The notes under the pieces: model-generated
The model's database searches: none
Told to the model about the DNA's origin: nothing
What the model saw: only the letters and a program-made list of their open reading frames with translations
Part shown: positions 24,023-32,667 of the stretch, piece after piece
Layout of the letters: the number at the start of each line of letters is the position of its first letter
Position numbering within the stretch: the stretch's first letter is position 1
Origin: Alphaproteobacteria bacterium
GTDB lineage: Bacteria > Pseudomonadota > Alphaproteobacteria > JANQMY01
Reading direction: 5' to 3'
Assembly: GCA_028289425.1 (NCBI GenBank)
Contig: JANQPL010000012.1
Coordinates: 248,001-312,000, forward strand
Length of the DNA: 64,000 nt
Translations under genes and position numbers: made by a program

Positions 24023-24873
24023 GTTTCAATCGGCAGGTCGTTGCGCGCTCCCCATTCGGCCCAGGAGCCATCATACAAGCCACCGTCAGGCGCCTTCAAT
24101 TGATGAAGCGCCAGTCGCAAAATGGCGGCGGTGATGCCCGAACCGCAGGTGGCGGCGATCGGTTGGGCCGGATCAAGACCGGCTTTGCGGAACACGTCCG
24201 AGATCGCGTCGGGCGGCAGTAACTCGCCGCTCTCGTTCAAAACCGCTTTGTACGGAACATTCTTAGAGCCGGGAATATGGCCGCCCCGGACGCCGGGGCG
24301 CGGTTCAGCTTCCTGGGCGAGGAACCGGGGCGCGCCGCGGGCATCGGCGATCTGAATCCCTTCGGCGGACAGGGACGATGCGATGGCCTCAGATTCAATC
24401 AACATTTCCGGCCGGGCCGTCGCTTTGAATTCGGATCGGCGCCGTGTCACGGGTTCCGTTGAGAGTGGGCGGTTCTCCCGCCGCCATTTCGGCAATCCGC
24501 CATCCAGCACCGCCACCTTGTCGTGGCCCATGGCGCGGCACATCCACCACAGGCGTGCGGCACTGAACAGACCTGCGCCGTCATAGCAGATGATGAAATG
24601 ATTGCTGCCCAGGCCCAGCGCCGACATCTTTTCCGCGAAATGTTCCGCCGTCGGAAGCATATGGGGCAGGGGCGATTTGGGATCGCTGATATCATCGAGA
24701 TCCACATACGCCGCCCCCGGAATATGCCCTTGCGCGTATTCCGCTCTTGGATCCCGCTTCATGTCGGGCAAATACCAGGACGCATCGGCTATGGCGACCG
24801 CGTCGTCATCTAGCCGATCGGCCAGCCAAGCGGTAGACATCAATCCGGACGATGGGTCAGGCAAAGATTGCAT
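24019..24873 (-). CDS. sseA: 3-mercaptopyruvate sulfurtransferase
   Basis: 284 aa with two rhodanese domains. The active-site cysteine is C243 in TCGSGITA, the motif that separates mercaptopyruvate from thiosulfate sulfurtransferases. Transfers sulfur from 3-mercaptopyruvate to thiols or cyanide. Its first 17 bp overlap the end of cysK, so the two are cotranscribed, giving a cysteine synthesis and breakdown unit next to metC and aap. Confidence 0.93.
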   Translation of the reverse strand: MQSLPDPSSGLMSTAWLADRLDDDAVAIADASWYLPDMKRDPRAEYAQGHIPGAAYVDLDDISDPKSPLPHMLPTAEHFAEKMSALGLGSNHFIICYDGAGLFSAARLWWMCRAMGHDKVAVLDGGLPKWRRENRPLSTEPVTRRRSEFKATARPEMLIESEAIASSLSAEGIQIADARGAPRFLAQEAEPRPGVRGGHIPGSKNVPYKAVLNESGELLPPDAISDVFRKAGLDPAQPIAATCGSGITAAILRLALHQLKAPDGGLYDGSWAEWGARNDLPIET

Positions 24874-25903
24874 TTCTGAAGTCGTCCGAGAGCTGAGGCC
24901 CTCTGTCCAGCCATTCAGGCACGGGCAATCCCTTCTCCTTCAGGAAGTCCGGGTTGAAAAGCTTGCTTTGATATCGCGTGCCAAAATCACAGAGGACGGT
25001 GACGATTGTGTGGCCGGGACCCAAATCCTGCGCCATGCGGATCGCGCCTGCCACATTGATGCCGCTGGAGCCGCCAAGGCATAGACCTTCTTCCGTCAGC
25101 AGGTCGAAGACGATGGGCAGCGCTTCTTCGTCGGGGATCTGGTAGGCATCGTCAATCGGGGCGCCTTCCAGATTGGCTGTTACCCGTCCTTGACCGATCC
25201 CTTCGGTGATGGAGGTGCCCTCCGCCTTCAGTTCGCCGTGCTTGTAGTAGTGGTACATGGCGGCCCCCATGGGATCGGCGGCGGCGATCTGGATGTTGGC
25301 GTTGCGTTCCTTGAGCGCGATGCCGACACCCGCAAGCGTGCCTCCAGTGCCGATGGCGCAGGTAAAGCCATCCACTTTTCCGTCGGTCTGATCCCAGATC
25401 TCAGGCCCCGTTGTGCGCACGTGGCCGTCCCGATTGGCCACATTGTCGAACTGGTTGGCCCATATGGCGCCATTCGCCTCGGTCTCGTTCAGCTTTTCCG
25501 CAAGCCGCCCGGAATATTTCACGTAATTGTTGGGGTCCTTGTAGGGCACCGCAGGAACCTGGATGAGTTCCGCGCCGGACAGGCGCAGCATGTCCTTTTT
25601 TTCCTCGCTTTGAGTGTCCGGTATCACGATGACCGTTCTGAAGCCCATGGCGTTCCCCACCAGGGCAAGGCCGATCCCCGTATTCCCGGCCGTGCCCTCG
25701 ACGATGACCCCACCTGGCCGCAGCTTTCCGGATTTGACCGCTTCCTCGATGATGAAAAGCGCTGCGCGATCCTTCACCGACTGACCCGGATTCAAAAACT
25801 CCGCCTTGCCGAGAATCTCGCATCCGGTCAGTTCAGACGCCTTCTTGAGGCGGATCAGCGGCGTGTTGCCAATCGTCTCCAGCATTCCATTTTTTATGGT
25901 CAT
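24857..25903 (-). CDS. cysK: Cysteine synthase (O-acetylserine sulfhydrylase)
   Basis: 348-aa fold-type II PLP enzyme. The Schiff-base lysine is K44 in NPGQSVKDRAA, the phosphate/substrate loop is EGTAGNTGIGLA, and the PLP phosphate cradle is GTGGTLAG. It is longer than E. coli CysK (323 aa), mainly through a C-terminal tail, as in many alphaproteobacteria. First gene of the cysK-sseA-GNAT operon. A cystathionine beta-synthase-like role cannot be excluded from sequence alone. Confidence 0.93.
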   Translation of the reverse strand: MTIKNGMLETIGNTPLIRLKKASELTGCEILGKAEFLNPGQSVKDRAALFIIEEAVKSGKLRPGGVIVEGTAGNTGIGLALVGNAMGFRTVIVIPDTQSEEKKDMLRLSGAELIQVPAVPYKDPNNYVKYSGRLAEKLNETEANGAIWANQFDNVANRDGHVRTTGPEIWDQTDGKVDGFTCAIGTGGTLAGVGIALKERNANIQIAAADPMGAAMYHYYKHGELKAEGTSITEGIGQGRVTANLEGAPIDDAYQIPDEEALPIVFDLLTEEGLCLGGSSGINVAGAIRMAQDLGPGHTIVTVLCDFGTRYQSKLFNPDFLKEKGLPVPEWLDRGPQLSDDFRNAIFA

Positions 25904-26001: not shown

Positions 26002-26031
26002 TGATCCGGTTTGCTTTCCTCTGCGTAGAAA
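26002..26031 (+). promoter_or_regulatory. Candidate RpoE (ECF11) promoter of chrR
   Basis: TGATCC (26002-26007), an 18-base spacer ending GCG, then TAGAAA (26026-26031). The same architecture occurs before the SDR gene and the FAD-oxidoreductase operon in this window, and resembles promoters of the singlet-oxygen sigma factor RpoE of Rhodobacter. It would leave a leader of about 85 bases before chrR. Confidence 0.65.
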
Positions 26032-26122
26032 AGGAAACAAGTAGTCGTTTATTCTCAAAACAGGTCATCATATCTTGTTTTAAATCAAACACTTAGATGT
26101 CCTTTTTGAAGTGAGAGAGCAA

Positions 26123-26788
26123 ATGGTCGCCTCCGAAAAGCTCGAGGAACTGTTACTAGAATACAGCGCTGGGACTCTGTCTGAGACCCCTTCCTTGCTT
26201 GTGGCTACTCATCTCGCACTGTCGCCTGCCTCTCGCAAATTGGTGCGCGACATGGAGGAGATTGCCGGTGCGCTGCTTAGCTTGGGCGGCGAGCCGGAAA
26301 GTTCAAGTCTTGCGCTTGATGCCGAATTGCTTACCAAGCCAAACAAAATTGCCCCGGACCGTCAGTCCGGCCCTGGGCGTCGGCCGGCAGCGCCGAGCGA
26401 CTTGCCCGAGCCGCTTGCCTCCTATGTGGGGCGTTTGGCAGAGGTCCCATGGCGCCGCAAATTGCCTGGTCTGAAAGAGTTTGAGCTGCCCGCGGCAGCG
26501 GACGGCTTCGATGCGAAGCTCTATCGGATCAAAGCCAGCCGCTCCATGCCTCAACACACCCATGACGGGGACGAGCTGACCCTGGTGTTGGAAGGCGGGT
26601 TTTCGGACCAAACCGGTAGCTATCGGGCCGGGGATGTGGCCATCGCCGACCCCTCGGTCGACCACCGCCCTTACGCTGATCCGGACGGGGATTGTATTTG
26701 TCTGGCCGTCACTCGGGGCCCGCTGCGTTTGACGGGCCCCCTTGGACGGGTCTGGCAGGGATTTGCTGGCAAAAATGACAAATCATGA
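26123..26788 (+). CDS. chrR: ChrR-type cupin anti-sigma factor, orphan and lacking N-terminal zinc ligands
   Basis: 221 aa. The N-terminal anti-sigma domain LLLEYSAGTL...VATHLALSPASRKLV matches ChrR, the cytoplasmic inhibitor of the singlet-oxygen sigma factor RpoE. However, the H-x3-C-x2-C zinc site reads H30-x3-S34-x2-S37 and no early histidine is seen. The C-terminal cupin keeps its metal ligands H145, H147, E151 (QHTHDGDE) and H181. Normally chrR follows rpoE directly; here no sigma gene is upstream or anywhere in the window, and the gene has its own candidate RpoE-type promoter. ATG at 26123 is preferred; a GTG four codons upstream is possible. Confidence 0.88.
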   Translation: MVASEKLEELLLEYSAGTLSETPSLLVATHLALSPASRKLVRDMEEIAGALLSLGGEPESSSLALDAELLTKPNKIAPDRQSGPGRRPAAPSDLPEPLASYVGRLAEVPWRRKLPGLKEFELPAAADGFDAKLYRIKASRSMPQHTHDGDELTLVLEGGFSDQTGSYRAGDVAIADPSVDHRPYADPDGDCICLAVTRGPLRLTGPLGRVWQGFAGKNDKS

Positions 26789-26949
26789 CAACCAATTGAT
26801 CAATTGGCCCGCGACATTTGGTGAAAAATGTGTTACGTTGCCAGCTTCACGTTCGGGGATCGGGGTTGAGATCCTTCCGGTAACAATAAAAAACGTTACG
26901 TCACAATCAAGAAATCCGACTTGGTGTGCGTTGTTGGGGACCTAGTTAC

Positions 26950-27690
26950 ATGTCGTTGCATGGCTTTGTCGGTGTTCTTGCGTTTGTTCTAACCCTTCTA
27001 TTTCCAGCACTGGCCTCCGCAGATAGGGCGATCGAGCTCGCCGCCGTGGAAACACGTCAACCGGGGGCCTACGAAAGCCAGCACCGCCGCTTGAGCTTTG
27101 ATGTTCAGCGGAAGGGCAAAACCATCGGCCAGCACGTCGTTAACATTCGTGAAGACGGCGACCAGGTGGTGGTCGACACCAAAATCGACATCAAGATCAA
27201 TATCGCCTTTGTGACGGTGTTTACCTACAGCCATACCGGTCACGAGGTCTGGCAAGATGGCAAATTGGTCAGCCTGGACAATGTATCGAACGACAATGGC
27301 AACGAAATCGTGCTGACGGCTGAGCGCGGCACTGAGGGGCTCATCGTCCATGGGACACGTTTCGACGGTGCCATGACCGATCTGACCATTCCCACCAGCT
27401 ATTGGAATACGGCGACCGTTCAGTGTAAGCGCATGTTTAATACTCAAAACGGAAAGCCGATGGACGTGAATGTCCAAGAGGACGGCAGCGAGATCATACA
27501 AGCAGGGGGCCGGACGGTTGAGGCAACCAAATACACGATCGACGGAGATCTAAAGAAGCAGATCTGGTACGACCGTGCAGGCACATGGGTCAAATCGGTC
27601 TTCAATGTCCGTGGCCAGCAAATTGAATATGTGCTGGTTGACGACAAGGTTGAGACCGCCAGCAACGATCCGCGTATCCTTACCCGCTAG
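26950..27690 (+). CDS. DUF6134 family secreted protein
   Basis: 246 aa from ATG 26950. A signal peptide runs to about ASADR. The mature domain starts LSFDVQRKGKTIGQHVVNIREDG and continues with YSHTGHEVWQDGKLVSLDNVSNDNGNE, a pattern I recognise as DUF6134 (a periplasmic beta-sheet domain of unknown function). A single cysteine (C, near VQCKRMF) is present. It lies 161 bp after chrR on the same strand, and DUF6134 genes tend to accompany the same lipid/RpoE genes, but no independent RpoE-type promoter was found in front of it. Confidence 0.8.
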   Translation: MSLHGFVGVLAFVLTLLFPALASADRAIELAAVETRQPGAYESQHRRLSFDVQRKGKTIGQHVVNIREDGDQVVVDTKIDIKINIAFVTVFTYSHTGHEVWQDGKLVSLDNVSNDNGNEIVLTAERGTEGLIVHGTRFDGAMTDLTIPTSYWNTATVQCKRMFNTQNGKPMDVNVQEDGSEIIQAGGRTVEATKYTIDGDLKKQIWYDRAGTWVKSVFNVRGQQIEYVLVDDKVETASNDPRILTR

Positions 27691-27765
27691 AGCAAAACTC
27701 CCCACCCAAACCTTAAGAAATTAGAGCGCCCCAAAAGTTAGGGAATGCCAGGTCGCGCCTGATGG

Positions 27766-27795
27766 GGATCCGTCAGGGCGAATTTGGCGTACAAA
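27766..27795 (+). promoter_or_regulatory. Candidate RpoE (ECF11) promoter of the SDR gene
   Basis: GGATCC (27766-27771), an 18-base spacer ending GCG, and TACAAA (27790-27795). It has the same spacing and the same GCG before the -10 as the chrR and FAD-operon promoters. Predicted transcription start is about 20 bases before the gene. Confidence 0.6.
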
Positions 27796-27823
27796 TGGCA
27801 CAGGTCCAACGAAGGATAAGAAA

Positions 27824-28621
27824 GTGCCCATGGAAACCCCCTCTAAGCCCAAATTGGTGTGGATCACCGGCGCGAGCACCGGTATCGGCAGGGCGACTGC
27901 CAAACGCCTCGCCGAGCAGGGCTGCACGGTTGCGGTAACGGCCCGCAGCAAAGAGCCCCTCGACACGCTCGAACAAGAGTGCAAAGGCCTGCCGGGTGAC
28001 ATCGCCGTGTTCGACGGGGATGTGACCGATGCCGAACGTATGGGCGCCGTTGTCGAGGCGATCGAACAGCGTTATGGCCCCATCGACTTGGCGATCCTGA
28101 ATGCGGGTATTTACCTGCCCATGGAAGTGACGGCGCTAGACCTTGGTAAGTTCCGACAGTCGCTCGATGTTAACTTGATGGGCGTGGCCAATGGCCTTGC
28201 CCCTTTGCTGCCCAAAATGATCGGCCGCAAGACCGGGCATCTGGCCATCGTTTCTTCCGTGACCGGATATGGCGGCCTGCCCACCAGCCTCGCTTATGGC
28301 GCGACCAAAGCCGCCCTAATCAACATGGCGGAGACCCTCAAAATCGAACTTGACCGGCATCAGGTGAATGTAAGCGTCATCAATCCCGGTTTTGTGGAAA
28401 CGCCGGCGACGGATGAAAACCCGTTCCCCATGCCCTTTATCGTGCCCGCGGATGTGGCGGCCCAGCGCATTGTCGCGGGCCTCGAGAAAGGCAAGTTCGA
28501 AATCACCTTCCCCAAGCGTTTCACCTATTTGCTCAAGGCCATCAATATGTTGCCCCGGCGTTGGTATTTGGCGTTGGTGAAGCGCGCAACCGGTTGGCAC
28601 AAACTTCCGGCGGCAAGTTAG
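27824..28621 (+). CDS. Short-chain dehydrogenase/reductase (RpoE-regulon type)
   Basis: 265 aa, classical SDR: TGASTGIG cofactor loop near residues 15-22, NAG at the end of beta-4, the SSVTGYGG serine and YGATK catalytic Tyr/Lys. A 40-residue tail rich in basic and aromatic residues may touch the membrane. GTG at 27824 is used because AAGGA lies 8 bases upstream; ATG two codons later is possible. An SDR gene belongs to the RpoE/ChrR regulon near the CFA-like gene in Rhodobacter sphaeroides, which agrees with the promoter seen here. Substrate unknown, probably a lipid or carbonyl product. Confidence 0.87.
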   Translation: MPMETPSKPKLVWITGASTGIGRATAKRLAEQGCTVAVTARSKEPLDTLEQECKGLPGDIAVFDGDVTDAERMGAVVEAIEQRYGPIDLAILNAGIYLPMEVTALDLGKFRQSLDVNLMGVANGLAPLLPKMIGRKTGHLAIVSSVTGYGGLPTSLAYGATKAALINMAETLKIELDRHQVNVSVINPGFVETPATDENPFPMPFIVPADVAAQRIVAGLEKGKFEITFPKRFTYLLKAINMLPRRWYLALVKRATGWHKLPAAS

Positions 28622-28756
28622 GCCATTGTGATTTCATCTCGACAAGGTGGCAAAAAAAGTCGCTCGTCGCGAGCCGCCGTGGTGCTGTAGGGCGTATCGG
28701 GCGAAGCCGCAATACGCCGCAGCCGGCTCAAAACGGTGCTGATTACTTCTTCTGTA

Positions 28757-30052
28757 TCAGTTGCGGACGAACGCTACCTGAGTCACATCGATGTTCCGTG
28801 AACGGAAACCTGCCTCGCAATAGGAGAGGTAGTAGTGCCACATGCGGCGGAAGCGCTCGTCAAATCCCATTCGGGTGATCTTGGGCCAGGCTTCAAAGAA
28901 GCGGTCGCGCCAAATGGCCAGCGTCTGGGCGTAATCGGTACCGAAATCAATGTTGCGGTCAAAGGTCAACCCAGAGGCGCTGGCGTGTTCCAGCAAGTGT
29001 TTCGGTGACGGCAGCATGCCGCCAGGAAATATGTAGCGGCGAATGAAATCGGAATTCTGGCTGTAGGTATCGAAGTGCTTTTCGTCGATGGTGATGATCT
29101 GCATCGCAGCGCGGCCGCCATCGACCAAACTATCGGACACCTTCTTGAAGAATGTGGGCCAGTATTCTTGGCCGACCGCCTCAAACATTTCGATGGACGC
29201 TACCCGGTCGAACTTTTCGGTGACATCGCGGTAGTCCTGAAAACGCAGCTCGACTTTGTCCTGCAGACCCGCGCGCGCAATCCGTTTGCGGGCAAACTCC
29301 AACTGCTCTTGGCTGATGGTCAGGCCCACCACGTTGCAGCCGACGTCCTTCGCGGCGAATTCCGCAAAGCCGCCCCAGCCGCATCCGATTTCAAGCACGT
29401 TCTGGCCCGGCTGCAGGTCCAGCAATTTTGCGAGCGAGGCATATTTGTTGATTTGGGCATCGGATAAATCTTTGGTCTGAGGATCGAATTTAGCTGACGA
29501 ATAGGTCATCGTCGGATCGAGCCATTGTTCGTAAAAGTCGTTCCCGAGATCGTAGTGATAGCTGATGTTCCGTTTGGAACCGGAACGAGAGTTTTTGTTC
29601 AGCATATGAAGCATGCGCTGAAAGAACTTCACCACGGGGCGTCCCGAAAAGAACGATTCAACTTTTTCGCTATTGCGGGCGACCACTTCAAGCAAGGTTT
29701 CAAGGTTAGGGCTGTCCCACTCGCCTTCCAGATAGCCTTCCGCAAAGCCAATGCCGCCGCCACGCACCAAACGGCTGGCAAATGAAAAGTCGTTCACCCG
29801 CAGCGTTGCATCGTGACCGGGCGTTTTGCCCTGAAATTTGAACCGTCGACCGTCGGGAACGATGACCGTGATAGAGCCCCATTCAAGATGGGTTGCCACC
29901 CGGGCGATCACTGAAAACCATCGGGGCAGTCCGGTAAGAACATTCAAATTGTCAGCCGTGACCAGGGTTTCGGGCTGCTGCGCCTCGCTATTACCGTTCG
30001 CCGGGGCAGAGCCGAATGGAGCGGATGTCGAATTCGCGTCGATATGTGCCAT
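28757..30052 (-). CDS. CFA-like SAM-dependent fatty-acyl methyltransferase
   Basis: 431 aa of the cyclopropane-fatty-acid synthase family. The N-terminal lipid-binding domain is followed by the SAM site VLEIGCGWGGF (219-229) and the family sequences HYDLGNDFYEQWLD, YSSAKF and FIRRYIFPGG. Acts on unsaturated phospholipid acyl chains at the membrane. In RpoE/ChrR regulons a homologue (UfaM) methylates cis-vaccenoyl chains on the way to furan fatty acids, so the product may be a methylated rather than a cyclopropane chain. Last gene of the FAD oxidoreductase-DUF1365-methyltransferase operon. Confidence 0.9.
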   Translation of the reverse strand: MAHIDANSTSAPFGSAPANGNSEAQQPETLVTADNLNVLTGLPRWFSVIARVATHLEWGSITVIVPDGRRFKFQGKTPGHDATLRVNDFSFASRLVRGGGIGFAEGYLEGEWDSPNLETLLEVVARNSEKVESFFSGRPVVKFFQRMLHMLNKNSRSGSKRNISYHYDLGNDFYEQWLDPTMTYSSAKFDPQTKDLSDAQINKYASLAKLLDLQPGQNVLEIGCGWGGFAEFAAKDVGCNVVGLTISQEQLEFARKRIARAGLQDKVELRFQDYRDVTEKFDRVASIEMFEAVGQEYWPTFFKKVSDSLVDGGRAAMQIITIDEKHFDTYSQNSDFIRRYIFPGGMLPSPKHLLEHASASGLTFDRNIDFGTDYAQTLAIWRDRFFEAWPKITRMGFDERFRRMWHYYLSYCEAGFRSRNIDVTQVAFVRN

Positions 30053-30123
30053 CTGTTGGTTCTCCTCACTGATTGGAGGCCAGAGTTTTCGTTACTCAAC
30101 CTGTCGTGGCGCGTCCTGTAGCC

Positions 30124-30939
30124 CTATGATAGGTGACCGCGCACAACTTCGTAAGAGGTTTTCTCCGCCGGTTTTGATGCCGCATGCCCGTGATATCGGG
30201 CGCCCTTCAGCCAAAGCCTCAGGGCCTGCCAATGGATGGCGGCGATCACGCCCACCGTCATCAGCGGATAGGTGAAAAACACCCGCAGAAGATTTTTGTC
30301 GGTGAGGGCAGACTGCGTCCCGGTCATGGAAGCCAGCAATAAATCGCCATCGGCATCGGTTTGGCGGATTTTCAGCGCCATGCTGGCGTCCGGCTGCATG
30401 ATCGAAAAATGATACGTTGCCTGCATGCCAATGAAGGGGGATACGTAGAACGACTTGTCCGCACGGTGCTCCTTGATCGCGTCCGTGTCTTCGTCGATTG
30501 AAACGGGTACGACATAGGTGTGAGACTCGCCGTAGGTGTTGTGTACTTCGTACAGAATGGCGCGCAGCGTGCTGCGGTCATCGAAGCAATAAAACACCGA
30601 TAACGGATTGAACACATAGCCAAGAATGCGAGGCATGCACAACAACATGATCGGCCCACAGACGAAATCCAACCCAGCCTCGTGCAATAGTTTCTCGGCC
30701 CAAGGTCTCAATGGGCTGCCGTCGCGGGGCCCGTGATCTCGGTCGAAGAAGCTAAACAGGTTCCAGCGATTGTGCGAAAACAGTTTTCGTTTCTTGGACT
30801 GGTTTGAAAACTCGTCAATGTCAAAATAGCCGGTGAAGAAGCGGTAGCTGAACCTGTGGCGAAACGGATTGAGCCGCGCATGCATCACATTGCCTTCGTA
30901 AAGGCAAGCGGGAGCAGATTTGGGGTGCACAGATGTCAT
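30124..30939 (-). CDS. DUF1365 family protein
   Basis: 271 aa from the ATG at 30939, one base after the preceding gene. It shows the DUF1365 pattern: LYEGNVMHARLNPFRHRFSYRFFTGYFDIDE, FNPLSVFYCFD and EVHNTYGESHTYV near mid-protein, with a hydrophobic C-terminal segment (YPLMTVGVIAAIHWQALRLWLKG). The molecular function is not established. The family is nearly always encoded between the FAD oxidoreductase and the CFA-like enzyme, so it is assumed to take part in the same lipid modification. A longer reading overlapping the upstream gene is disfavoured. Confidence 0.88.
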   Translation of the reverse strand: MTSVHPKSAPACLYEGNVMHARLNPFRHRFSYRFFTGYFDIDEFSNQSKKRKLFSHNRWNLFSFFDRDHGPRDGSPLRPWAEKLLHEAGLDFVCGPIMLLCMPRILGYVFNPLSVFYCFDDRSTLRAILYEVHNTYGESHTYVVPVSIDEDTDAIKEHRADKSFYVSPFIGMQATYHFSIMQPDASMALKIRQTDADGDLLLASMTGTQSALTDKNLLRVFFTYPLMTVGVIAAIHWQALRLWLKGARYHGHAASKPAEKTSYEVVRGHLS

Positions 30940-30940
30940 C

Positions 30941-32242
30941 TCACTCTGCAGCTTCGCGGACGATTTGATCCTCTTCCCATGGTACAACGGCACCGAGCTC
31001 TCTGGCCACATGAAGTCCTGCCTTCAGCCCATCCTCGTGAAAGCCGCTGCCACAATAGGCGCCGGCGAACCAGGTGCGGCGCGTACCTTGAATGAGCGGC
31101 AATTGCTGTTGGGCATTCAGGGCTGTCCCATCGAACTGCGGATGATCGTAGTCAAAGCTGGCGAAAGTAAGATGGTCGCGCGGCGGCTTGGCGGGGTTCA
31201 GGCTGACGAACAGGGGGTATTTCTTGTCGATGTTCTGTAACCGGTTCATCCAATAAGAAACGGACACGGTTTTGGTAGACGCATTTTCCGGTCCGTCCTG
31301 ATCGCCGCACATATAGTTCCAACTCGACCAAATGACCTTCTTGTTCGGCATGAGCGCCGGATCCCTGTGCAGATAGGCTTTGTTGGGGGCGTAACGCAGG
31401 GCGGACAGAAGCTCTTGCTCGTCTGGTTGTGCGTCGGATAGAAGGCCCAATGCCTGATCACTGTGGGTCGCGATGACCACATGGTCGAACTTCTCGCGCG
31501 ATCCGTCCCAACTTTCAACAAAGACCCCGTCCATCACCCGTTGTATGCGTGTCACCGCCGCATTGAGTCGGACTTTGTCGGCGAACGACGCGGATATCTT
31601 TTTCACGTATTCGCGGCTGCCGCCCGTAACCGTCCGCCACAGGGGCCGCTCGCGGTAGATCAAACGATGATTGTTAAAGAACGACACAAAACTTTCGGCG
31701 GGGAAGTGCAGCATTTCTTGCGGGCTGGTGGACCAGATCGCGCCGCCCATAGGAAGCAGGTAAAGGTCCCGAAATTTCTTGGCGAAGTTTCTGGCATCCA
31801 GATATTCCCCAAGAGAACATCCGGTTAGGTGACCGCCCTCCAGATCCTCGACGCATTGTCGGTTAAAACGCAAGATTTCCGTCAGCATATGGATGAATGA
31901 TGGGCTGAACAGATTTTTCTTTTGAGCGAAGATCTCCCAGAAATTACCACCGGCCCATTCGGTGCGGCCATTCCGTGCGCTGACGGAAAAGCTCATATTG
32001 CTCGATTGGCTCGCAACGCCCAAATGGTCGAACAAGGCGACGAGATTTGGATAGTTGTGTTCGTTGTACACGATGAAGCCGGTATCGACGGGTATAACTT
32101 TTCCATCATAGTCCACGTCCACCGTGTTGCTGTGTCCGCCCAAGCGGTCGGCTTTTTCGAAGACCGTGATGTCGTGGTGTCGGTTAAGGAGGTAGGCAGC
32201 GGAGAGGCCCGAGATGCCTGTCCCAACGATTGCAATTTTCAT
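30941..32242 (-). CDS. FAD-dependent amine-oxidase-like oxidoreductase (lipid modification operon)
   Basis: 433 aa. The N-terminal dinucleotide fold IVGTGISGLSAAYLL (GxGxxG at 7-12) and ADRLGGHSNTVDVDYDGKVIPVDTGFIVYN are typical of the flavin amine-oxidase family and of the subgroup that precedes DUF1365 and CFA genes. TWFAGAYCGSGFHEDGLKAG near the C terminus completes the FAD site. Probably oxidises or desaturates an acyl chain in the pathway. First gene of the operon; a candidate RpoE promoter lies about 205 bases upstream. Confidence 0.9.
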   Translation of the reverse strand: MKIAIVGTGISGLSAAYLLNRHHDITVFEKADRLGGHSNTVDVDYDGKVIPVDTGFIVYNEHNYPNLVALFDHLGVASQSSNMSFSVSARNGRTEWAGGNFWEIFAQKKNLFSPSFIHMLTEILRFNRQCVEDLEGGHLTGCSLGEYLDARNFAKKFRDLYLLPMGGAIWSTSPQEMLHFPAESFVSFFNNHRLIYRERPLWRTVTGGSREYVKKISASFADKVRLNAAVTRIQRVMDGVFVESWDGSREKFDHVVIATHSDQALGLLSDAQPDEQELLSALRYAPNKAYLHRDPALMPNKKVIWSSWNYMCGDQDGPENASTKTVSVSYWMNRLQNIDKKYPLFVSLNPAKPPRDHLTFASFDYDHPQFDGTALNAQQQLPLIQGTRRTWFAGAYCGSGFHEDGLKAGLHVARELGAVVPWEEDQIVREAAE

Positions 32243-32446
32243 ACTGAATGGCCCTGTTCTGAAGAGGACGTGAATGAGTAATGGTCAGTGTTTGTGTGCT
32301 TTTTTGCTTTGGTCCTTGCTTCAGTCCCCACCAATCCTGCTGCTCCCCTGCCAAGGTTTTGTCTCATTGTCGGCCCGCGAACGAATTGCCCATCGGGTCC
32401 GTGGCAAGGGCAACCACCGGATTGCACTTAAGATTACCCGTACTGT

Positions 32447-32476
32447 CTCTTACGCAAAGAGGTCGGTAGTGGATCA
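32447..32476 (-). promoter_or_regulatory. Candidate RpoE (ECF11) promoter of the FAD oxidoreductase operon
   Basis: On the minus strand, TGATCC (32476-32471) is followed by 18 bases ending GCG and then TAAGAG (32452-32447). This is the best of the three copies. It gives a leader of about 200 bases before the FAD oxidoreductase gene at 32242. Confidence 0.7.
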
Positions 32477-32548
32477 ACGGGCGTTTCACGTCAATATTCC
32501 GCGGAACGCGGATGAAATCGTATGATTTTTGACGCCTAAGTGAAACGC

Positions 32549-32585
32549 AAAACGCCATCGGCCGTGAGGGCCGATGGCGTTTTTG
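32549..32585 (-). terminator. Terminator downstream of tRNA-Asn (bidirectional)
   Basis: An 11-bp stem CGCCATCGGCC / GGCCGATGGCG (32553-32563 and 32569-32579) has a T-run on both strands (TTTT on minus, TTTTT on plus). It begins 7 bases beyond the tRNA-Asn 3' end. Confidence 0.88.
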
Positions 32586-32591
32586 GGATGG

Positions 32592-32667
32592 TGGCTCCCC
32601 GGGCCGGACTCGAACCAGCGACCCAGCGGTTAACAGCCGCTTGCTCTACCAACTGAGCTACCGGGGA
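32592..32667 (-). tRNA. tRNA-Asn(GUU)
   Basis: 76 nt on the minus strand. Acceptor TCCCCGG / CCGGGGA, anticodon loop CTGTTAA (anticodon GTT), T loop GTTCGAGTC, and encoded CCA. Confidence 0.96.

Follow-up and report, generated by a model that had tools for sequence, protein, structure and literature searches.

The locus and its promoter-like sites

The window, by which we mean the whole 64,000-nucleotide stretch analysed here, carries a chrR-like anti-sigma gene with no sigma gene beside it, nor was a sigma gene found anywhere else within the window. We call such chrR genes orphans. This one is flanked by a divergent cysK gene and, downstream, by a DUF6134 gene and a short-chain dehydrogenase (SDR) gene; on the opposite strand lies an operon encoding an FAD amine-oxidase-like protein, a DUF1365 protein and a CFA-type methyltransferase (Table 1).

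Table 1. Genes and predicted promoter sites of the locus, in window coordinates
Feature	Position	Strand	Remarks
cysK, divergent neighbour marking this type of orphan-chrR locus	24857..25903	-	NF007989; not a predicted sigma target
Predicted ECF11 sigma promoter TGATCC-N18-TAGAAA, before orphan chrR	26002..26031	+	22.6 bits, window rank 2
chrR-like anti-sigma gene without neighbouring sigma gene	26111..26788	+	ATG start possible at 26123
DUF6134 gene	26926..27690	+	PF19630; ATG start 26950; after chrR in other orphan loci
Doubtful ECF11-like site GGATCC-N18-TACAAA, before SDR gene	27766..27795	+	11.3 bits, noise level
Short-chain dehydrogenase (SDR) gene	27824..28621	+	PF00106; near chrR in 15 orphan loci
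CFA-type methyltransferase, candidate ufaM	28757..30052	-	PF02353; family and order match PMC7380195
DUF1365 protein, candidate ufaO	30124..31011	-	PF07103; probably starts near 30940
FAD amine-oxidase-like protein, candidate ufaD	30941..32242	-	PF01593
Predicted ECF11 sigma promoter TGATCC-N18-TAAGAG, before FAD-DUF1365-CFA operon	32447..32476	-	22.7 bits, window rank 1

At the level of protein families, the three-gene operon matches the genes for furan fatty acid synthesis, and we regard it as a candidate ufaD-ufaO-ufaM operon. UfaD, UfaO and UfaM make furan fatty acids, UfaO contains DUF1365, and R. palustris has the three genes side by side (PMC7380195). In P. syringae, the homologue of RSP1091 (UfaD) carries the annotation flavin-containing amine oxidase (PMC5507510). 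The window thus has the same three families as the ufaM/ufaD/ufaO pathway (RSP2144, RSP1091, RSP1090; RPA2569-2571), in the adjacency seen in R. palustris. In R. sphaeroides, the furan-fatty-acid genes fall within the core sigma-E regulon (PMC6852236). Upstream of the operon's promoter, beside a tRNA-Asn gene, the window also contains a strong hairpin followed by a run of T's (GCCATCGGCC...GGCCGATGGC; 32540-32667).

A preliminary description of this DNA had reported three sites, before chrR, the SDR gene and the FAD operon, with boxes 18 bases apart and GCG ahead of the TA. All of this was confirmed at the positions in Table 1. The same description wrote the consensus as [T/G]GATCC-N15-GCGTA. 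Judged by its letters and spacing, this motif is the known ECF11 sigma promoter, TGATCC-N16-CGTA (identical to TGATCC-N15-xCGTA), and hence not new: the same consensus was published for P. syringae PSPTO_1043 (PMC5507510), and in Shewanella mapped transcription starts lie downstream of TGATCC/CGTA elements (PMC4336711). The published form occurs exactly at 26002 and 32476; the site at 27766 departs from it at a single base, having G instead of T at the first position. Sites before sigma genes in other genomes have T at this position with a frequency of 0.98, and G is nearly absent.

The proposed pattern, KGATCC-N15-GCGTA, matches the window three times, against a mean of 0.09 in 100 shuffles, none of which reached three. 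In the 5.42-Mb genome it has four matches and its reversed control none; the fourth lies about 60 bp upstream of a fasciclin gene. The preliminary description had proposed a genome scan to see whether hits cluster before oxidative and lipid genes and before an ECF11 sigma gene; the scan returned the window's three sites and the fasciclin site, and the ECF11 sigma gene described below has no site. Because the pattern was fitted post hoc, with the sites already known, and because the window shuffle rate scales up to about 7 expected matches per genome, the sites are notable for their position and clustering, not for their number. A broader pattern, TGATCY-N15-SCGTA, gave 14 matches in this genome (G000), many of them within coding ORFs, so that it adds candidates only. 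One site of the TGATCC-N16-CGTA form (G000:C7:94209-94234; L302) lies 69 bp upstream of a DUF1295 gene (PF06966), a candidate regulon member. A further site, scoring 19.2 bits (G000:C18:177714-177739; L313), is 70 bp upstream of a penicillin-acylase-like gene (PF01804). This one shares sequence with a short ORF and could be a chance match.

Since the pattern was post hoc, we tested the sites independently with a matrix built from 68 sites before sigma genes, all from other genomes. In 60 simulated windows of 64 kb, the best matrix score had a median of 13.1 bits and a 95% limit of 16.8; the largest, 22.7, was reached in one of the 60. The two highest scores in the real window were those at 32476 and 26002 (Table 1), whereas about one chance match per 64 kb is expected at the 11.3 bits of the 27766 site. 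In a congener, G001, chrR retains its site (24.4 bits) and so does the FAD orthologue, and both spacers have diverged from those in the window. That all three sites are chance matches is therefore hardly credible: the number of exact matches expected per genome and the noise-level SDR site are what one would see by chance, but a matrix trained elsewhere ranks the other two sites first and second and the congener keeps both with unrelated spacers, which already disfavours chance for 26002 and 32476. Strong sites in G001 also precede folE (GTP cyclohydrolase I; 24.6 bits) and a gene for an HlyD-type membrane fusion protein (25.4 bits; L021, L028).

The idea that the three sites define one stress regulon is supported for chrR and the FAD-DUF1365-CFA operon; the SDR gene has only its position in favour. 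The 27766 site is doubtful: among the 15 orphan-chrR loci with an SDR gene, only the window's own has a site near that gene and the 14 others have none. No SDR orthologue was found in G001 at E 1e-40. The SDR gene may instead be transcribed from the chrR promoter. So, probably, is the DUF6134 gene, before which none of seven orphan loci has a separate site.

A distant sigma gene and a census of ChrR loci

If chrR is an orphan, where is its sigma factor? Among ten matches to sigma region 2 in the genome, only one is ECF11-like, and it is encoded on another contig (G000:C20:37390-37977). In the PDB it most resembles R. sphaeroides RpoE (2q1z_A, E 1e-51; next match E 1e-20), and by this similarity we assign it to the ECF11 group. 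It is followed by a gene for a second ChrR-family protein (G000:C20:36643-37320; L015), which is 33% identical to the window ChrR and lacks the HxxxCxxC zinc motif. The chrR gene of the window is therefore an orphan, and is itself predicted to be a target of sigma. We found no ECF11 element upstream of this sigma gene, the best score being -5.7 bits within 480 bp and -4.8 within 1.2 kb, and none upstream of the sigma gene of G001. The preliminary description, which read the locus as an RpoE/ChrR regulon, was thus right about the regulon for chrR and the FAD operon, and missed the absence of rpoE here, which leaves chrR an orphan under predicted sigma control, the lack of a site before the sigma gene and, as described below, the loss of zinc ligands.

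We then asked how common this arrangement is. ChrR relatives were present in 148 of 385 alphaproteobacterial genomes searched, and 142 loci were classified: 118 had a sigma gene just upstream of chrR and 24 were orphans. Of the 118, five belong to genomes with the split arrangement, as second copies, leaving 113 pairs. At zero mismatches, the published consensus stood before 77 of the 113 paired sigma genes and 18 of the 24 orphan chrR genes, and before none of the 23 sigma genes of split genomes. The matrix gave 94/113, 21/24 and 1/23; its figure for paired genes is partly circular, as it was trained on such sites, and the consensus figure is not. The single positive among split genomes was G325, whose sigma gene lies about 1.3 kb from chrR. 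In paired loci, an element directly before chrR was seen in 2 of 118, both weak. Four more orphan chrR loci, all with the site, came from scanning named genomes (Ferrovibrio, a Hyphomicrobiaceae MAG, UBA7691 and TGS_PRO4).

The element itself is sharply defined by its spacing. At N15, it was found upstream of the sigma gene or orphan chrR in 83 of the 142 loci (68/118 for sigma genes beside chrR, 15/24 for orphan chrR genes); the remaining spacings between 10 and 20 yielded two matches in total, and the reversed pattern none. Among 51 paired sigma-chrR loci with the FAD operon, 42 also carry the element ahead of that operon.

The split arrangement recurs across many bacterial families. On the sigma tree, it requires about five changes, which are strongly clustered, and a single origin may be compatible with the well-supported branches. 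The association between the split state and the sigma site (Fisher p 7.5e-14) counts related genomes, and because of the clustering the independent pairs are too few for a phylogeny-corrected test. We also considered that a sigma gene might hide between cysK and chrR, and rejected this, as the ORFs in loci with room for one are others (NUDIX-like and so on, by eye).

These data bear on the most ordinary account of the locus, namely that it belongs to a standard ECF11 regulon in which chrR moved by neutral shuffling and the sigma gene activates itself through an unrecognised element. Site calls depend on the model, independent origins are few, and 19 of the 113 paired sigma genes also fall below the matrix threshold, so sigma genes with no clear site are not confined to genomes with the split. 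However, the published consensus is missing before all 23 sigma genes of split genomes and present before 77 of 113 paired ones, extending the search to 1.2 kb upstream of the sigma gene brought no gain, and cysK neighbours two thirds of the orphan chrR genes (16/24, against 0/118 where sigma is beside chrR). We consider neutral shuffling unlikely, while noting that the sigma gene could be self-activated through a site too diverged for the matrix to recognise, or one lying farther away.

The window ChrR protein

The window protein is a genuine member of the ChrR family by profile and by predicted structure. It scores 166.3 bits against TIGR02451, above the curated cut-off of 124.5, and its best PDB match is ChrR in 2z2s (E 7e-34). 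Its structural model (mean pLDDT 86.7) shows a confident helical N-terminal domain and a cupin, and in the PDB it comes closest to ChrR from 2q1z, over both domains, and from 2z2s.

In R. sphaeroides, ChrR binds zinc through His6, His31, Cys35 and Cys38, and this is required for inhibition of the sigma factor (PMC6852236). Three of these four anti-sigma-domain ligands are missing from the window protein. Where R. sphaeroides has THLSLCDECR, the window has THLALSPASR, with both cysteines replaced by serine; His6 is absent, and only His31 is kept. The cupin metal ligands, by contrast with these, are all retained (His141, His143, Glu147 and His177, corresponding to window H149, H151, E155 and H185). 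Without these zinc ligands, a ChrR might contact sigma in another way or fail to bind it. Across the census, the zinc motif was lost in 11 of 24 orphan ChrRs and 22 of 113 paired ones; we rejected its loss as a defining mark of orphans, since it is commoner in them yet present in both classes. As zinc-free members are also common throughout this anti-sigma class (PMC7406223), the loss alone is not extraordinary.

The window ChrR might nevertheless have ceased to be an anti-sigma factor and become a decoy or a free cupin sensor, leaving inhibition to the second ChrR. The lost ligands and the position of the second ChrR gene next to the sigma gene would fit such a role, but several observations make it improbable. 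The N-terminal domain is nearly identical in the window genome and G001, although much elsewhere has diverged, and the predicted fold keeps that helical domain and matches R. sphaeroides ChrR across both domains. Moreover, the second ChrR lacks the zinc motif too, zinc-free anti-sigma domains are common in the class, and several genomes with the split yielded no ChrR other than the orphan at E 1e-10.

A proposed circuit and its relation to known systems

We propose that what lies in the window is one half, effector and brake, of a membrane-oxidation stress regulon of the ECF11 (RpoE/ChrR) type, rewired so that the brake is inducible and the sigma factor does not amplify itself; we put the probability of this reading at roughly 0.8. 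When free, the sigma factor encoded on contig C20 would transcribe chrR, probably with the DUF6134 and SDR genes, from 26002, and the ufaD-ufaO-ufaM-like operon from 32476, as well as the fasciclin gene elsewhere in the genome. Newly made ChrR would recapture the sigma factor, giving negative feedback. Because chrR has a site and the sigma gene has none, activation would raise the brake and not the sigma factor, in place of the usual self-amplification: ECF sigma factors are typically self-activating and co-transcribed with their anti-sigma factors (PMC8103513). Turnover of ChrR under singlet oxygen requires furan fatty acids in R. sphaeroides (PMC6852236), so the ufa-like operon would also feed back on sigma activity. 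The sites, the gene families, the lack of a sigma gene beside chrR and of a site before the sigma gene, the lost zinc ligands and the recurrence of the split in other families come from computation; that the sigma factor binds the sites and the window ChrR binds the sigma factor, together with the inducing signal and the dynamics, we infer.

The ECF11 promoter and its core regulon are already known. The R. sphaeroides RpoE-ChrR system (ECF11) has a homologous sigma factor and ChrR, the same promoter element and the same target families (FAD oxidoreductase, DUF1365, CFA and SDR). There, however, rpoE and chrR make up a single operon, itself part of the core regulon, and the zinc site of ChrR is required (PMC6852236), whereas in the window genome chrR is separate with its own site, the sigma gene has no such promoter and the zinc ligands are missing. 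The P. syringae PSPTO_1043 and S. oneidensis RpoE2 regulons likewise share the consensus TGATCC-N16-CGTA (PMC5507510, PMC4336711) and differ in that sigma and chrR are both listed behind one element.

In the literature searched, we found no description of the split wiring of chrR and sigma, although it may have been noticed earlier, for example by Dufour et al. 2008. For orphan or unlinked chrR genes, that literature yielded only the stand-alone chrR of Rhodospirillum centenum, RC1_2981, which has TGATCC within its reported upstream sequence; the passages of that report consulted here treat the gene as a CgrA target and discuss neither sigma dependence nor the wiring (PMC4681086). Comparing related systems with and without self-activation offers a way to probe what self-activation is for: the size of the response, the speed of shut-off or cell-to-cell variation. 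Zinc-free ChrRs, for their part, bear on the question raised in PMC6852236 of what the zinc of the anti-sigma domain does in the singlet-oxygen response.

A broader generalisation is more tentative, and we would give it slightly less than even odds: that several alphaproteobacterial lineages have turned the self-amplifying ECF11 circuit into one in which stress induces the anti-sigma factor alone, the amount of sigma being set separately, and that duplicated ChrRs share the work as a standing and an inducible brake. The standing brake would adjoin the sigma gene, while the inducible, often zinc-free one would sit with lipid genes, whose products would trigger its destruction. In a quick and weakly resolved ChrR tree, the sigma-adjacent second copies, from three families, form a group that also includes two paired ChrRs (SH-aLRT 98), as an old duplication would predict. 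At two paired loci (L189 and L192, in G265 and G169), where no orphan chrR was listed for either genome, the ChrRs cluster with those second copies that split genomes carry, and the sigma genes have no site either. Finally, an open frame elsewhere in the window genome (G000:C9:113865-114452; L019/L020) encodes two ChrR-cupin-like repeats, with no match to an anti-sigma domain, and is possibly akin to the two-cupin ChrR-like protein 3o14.
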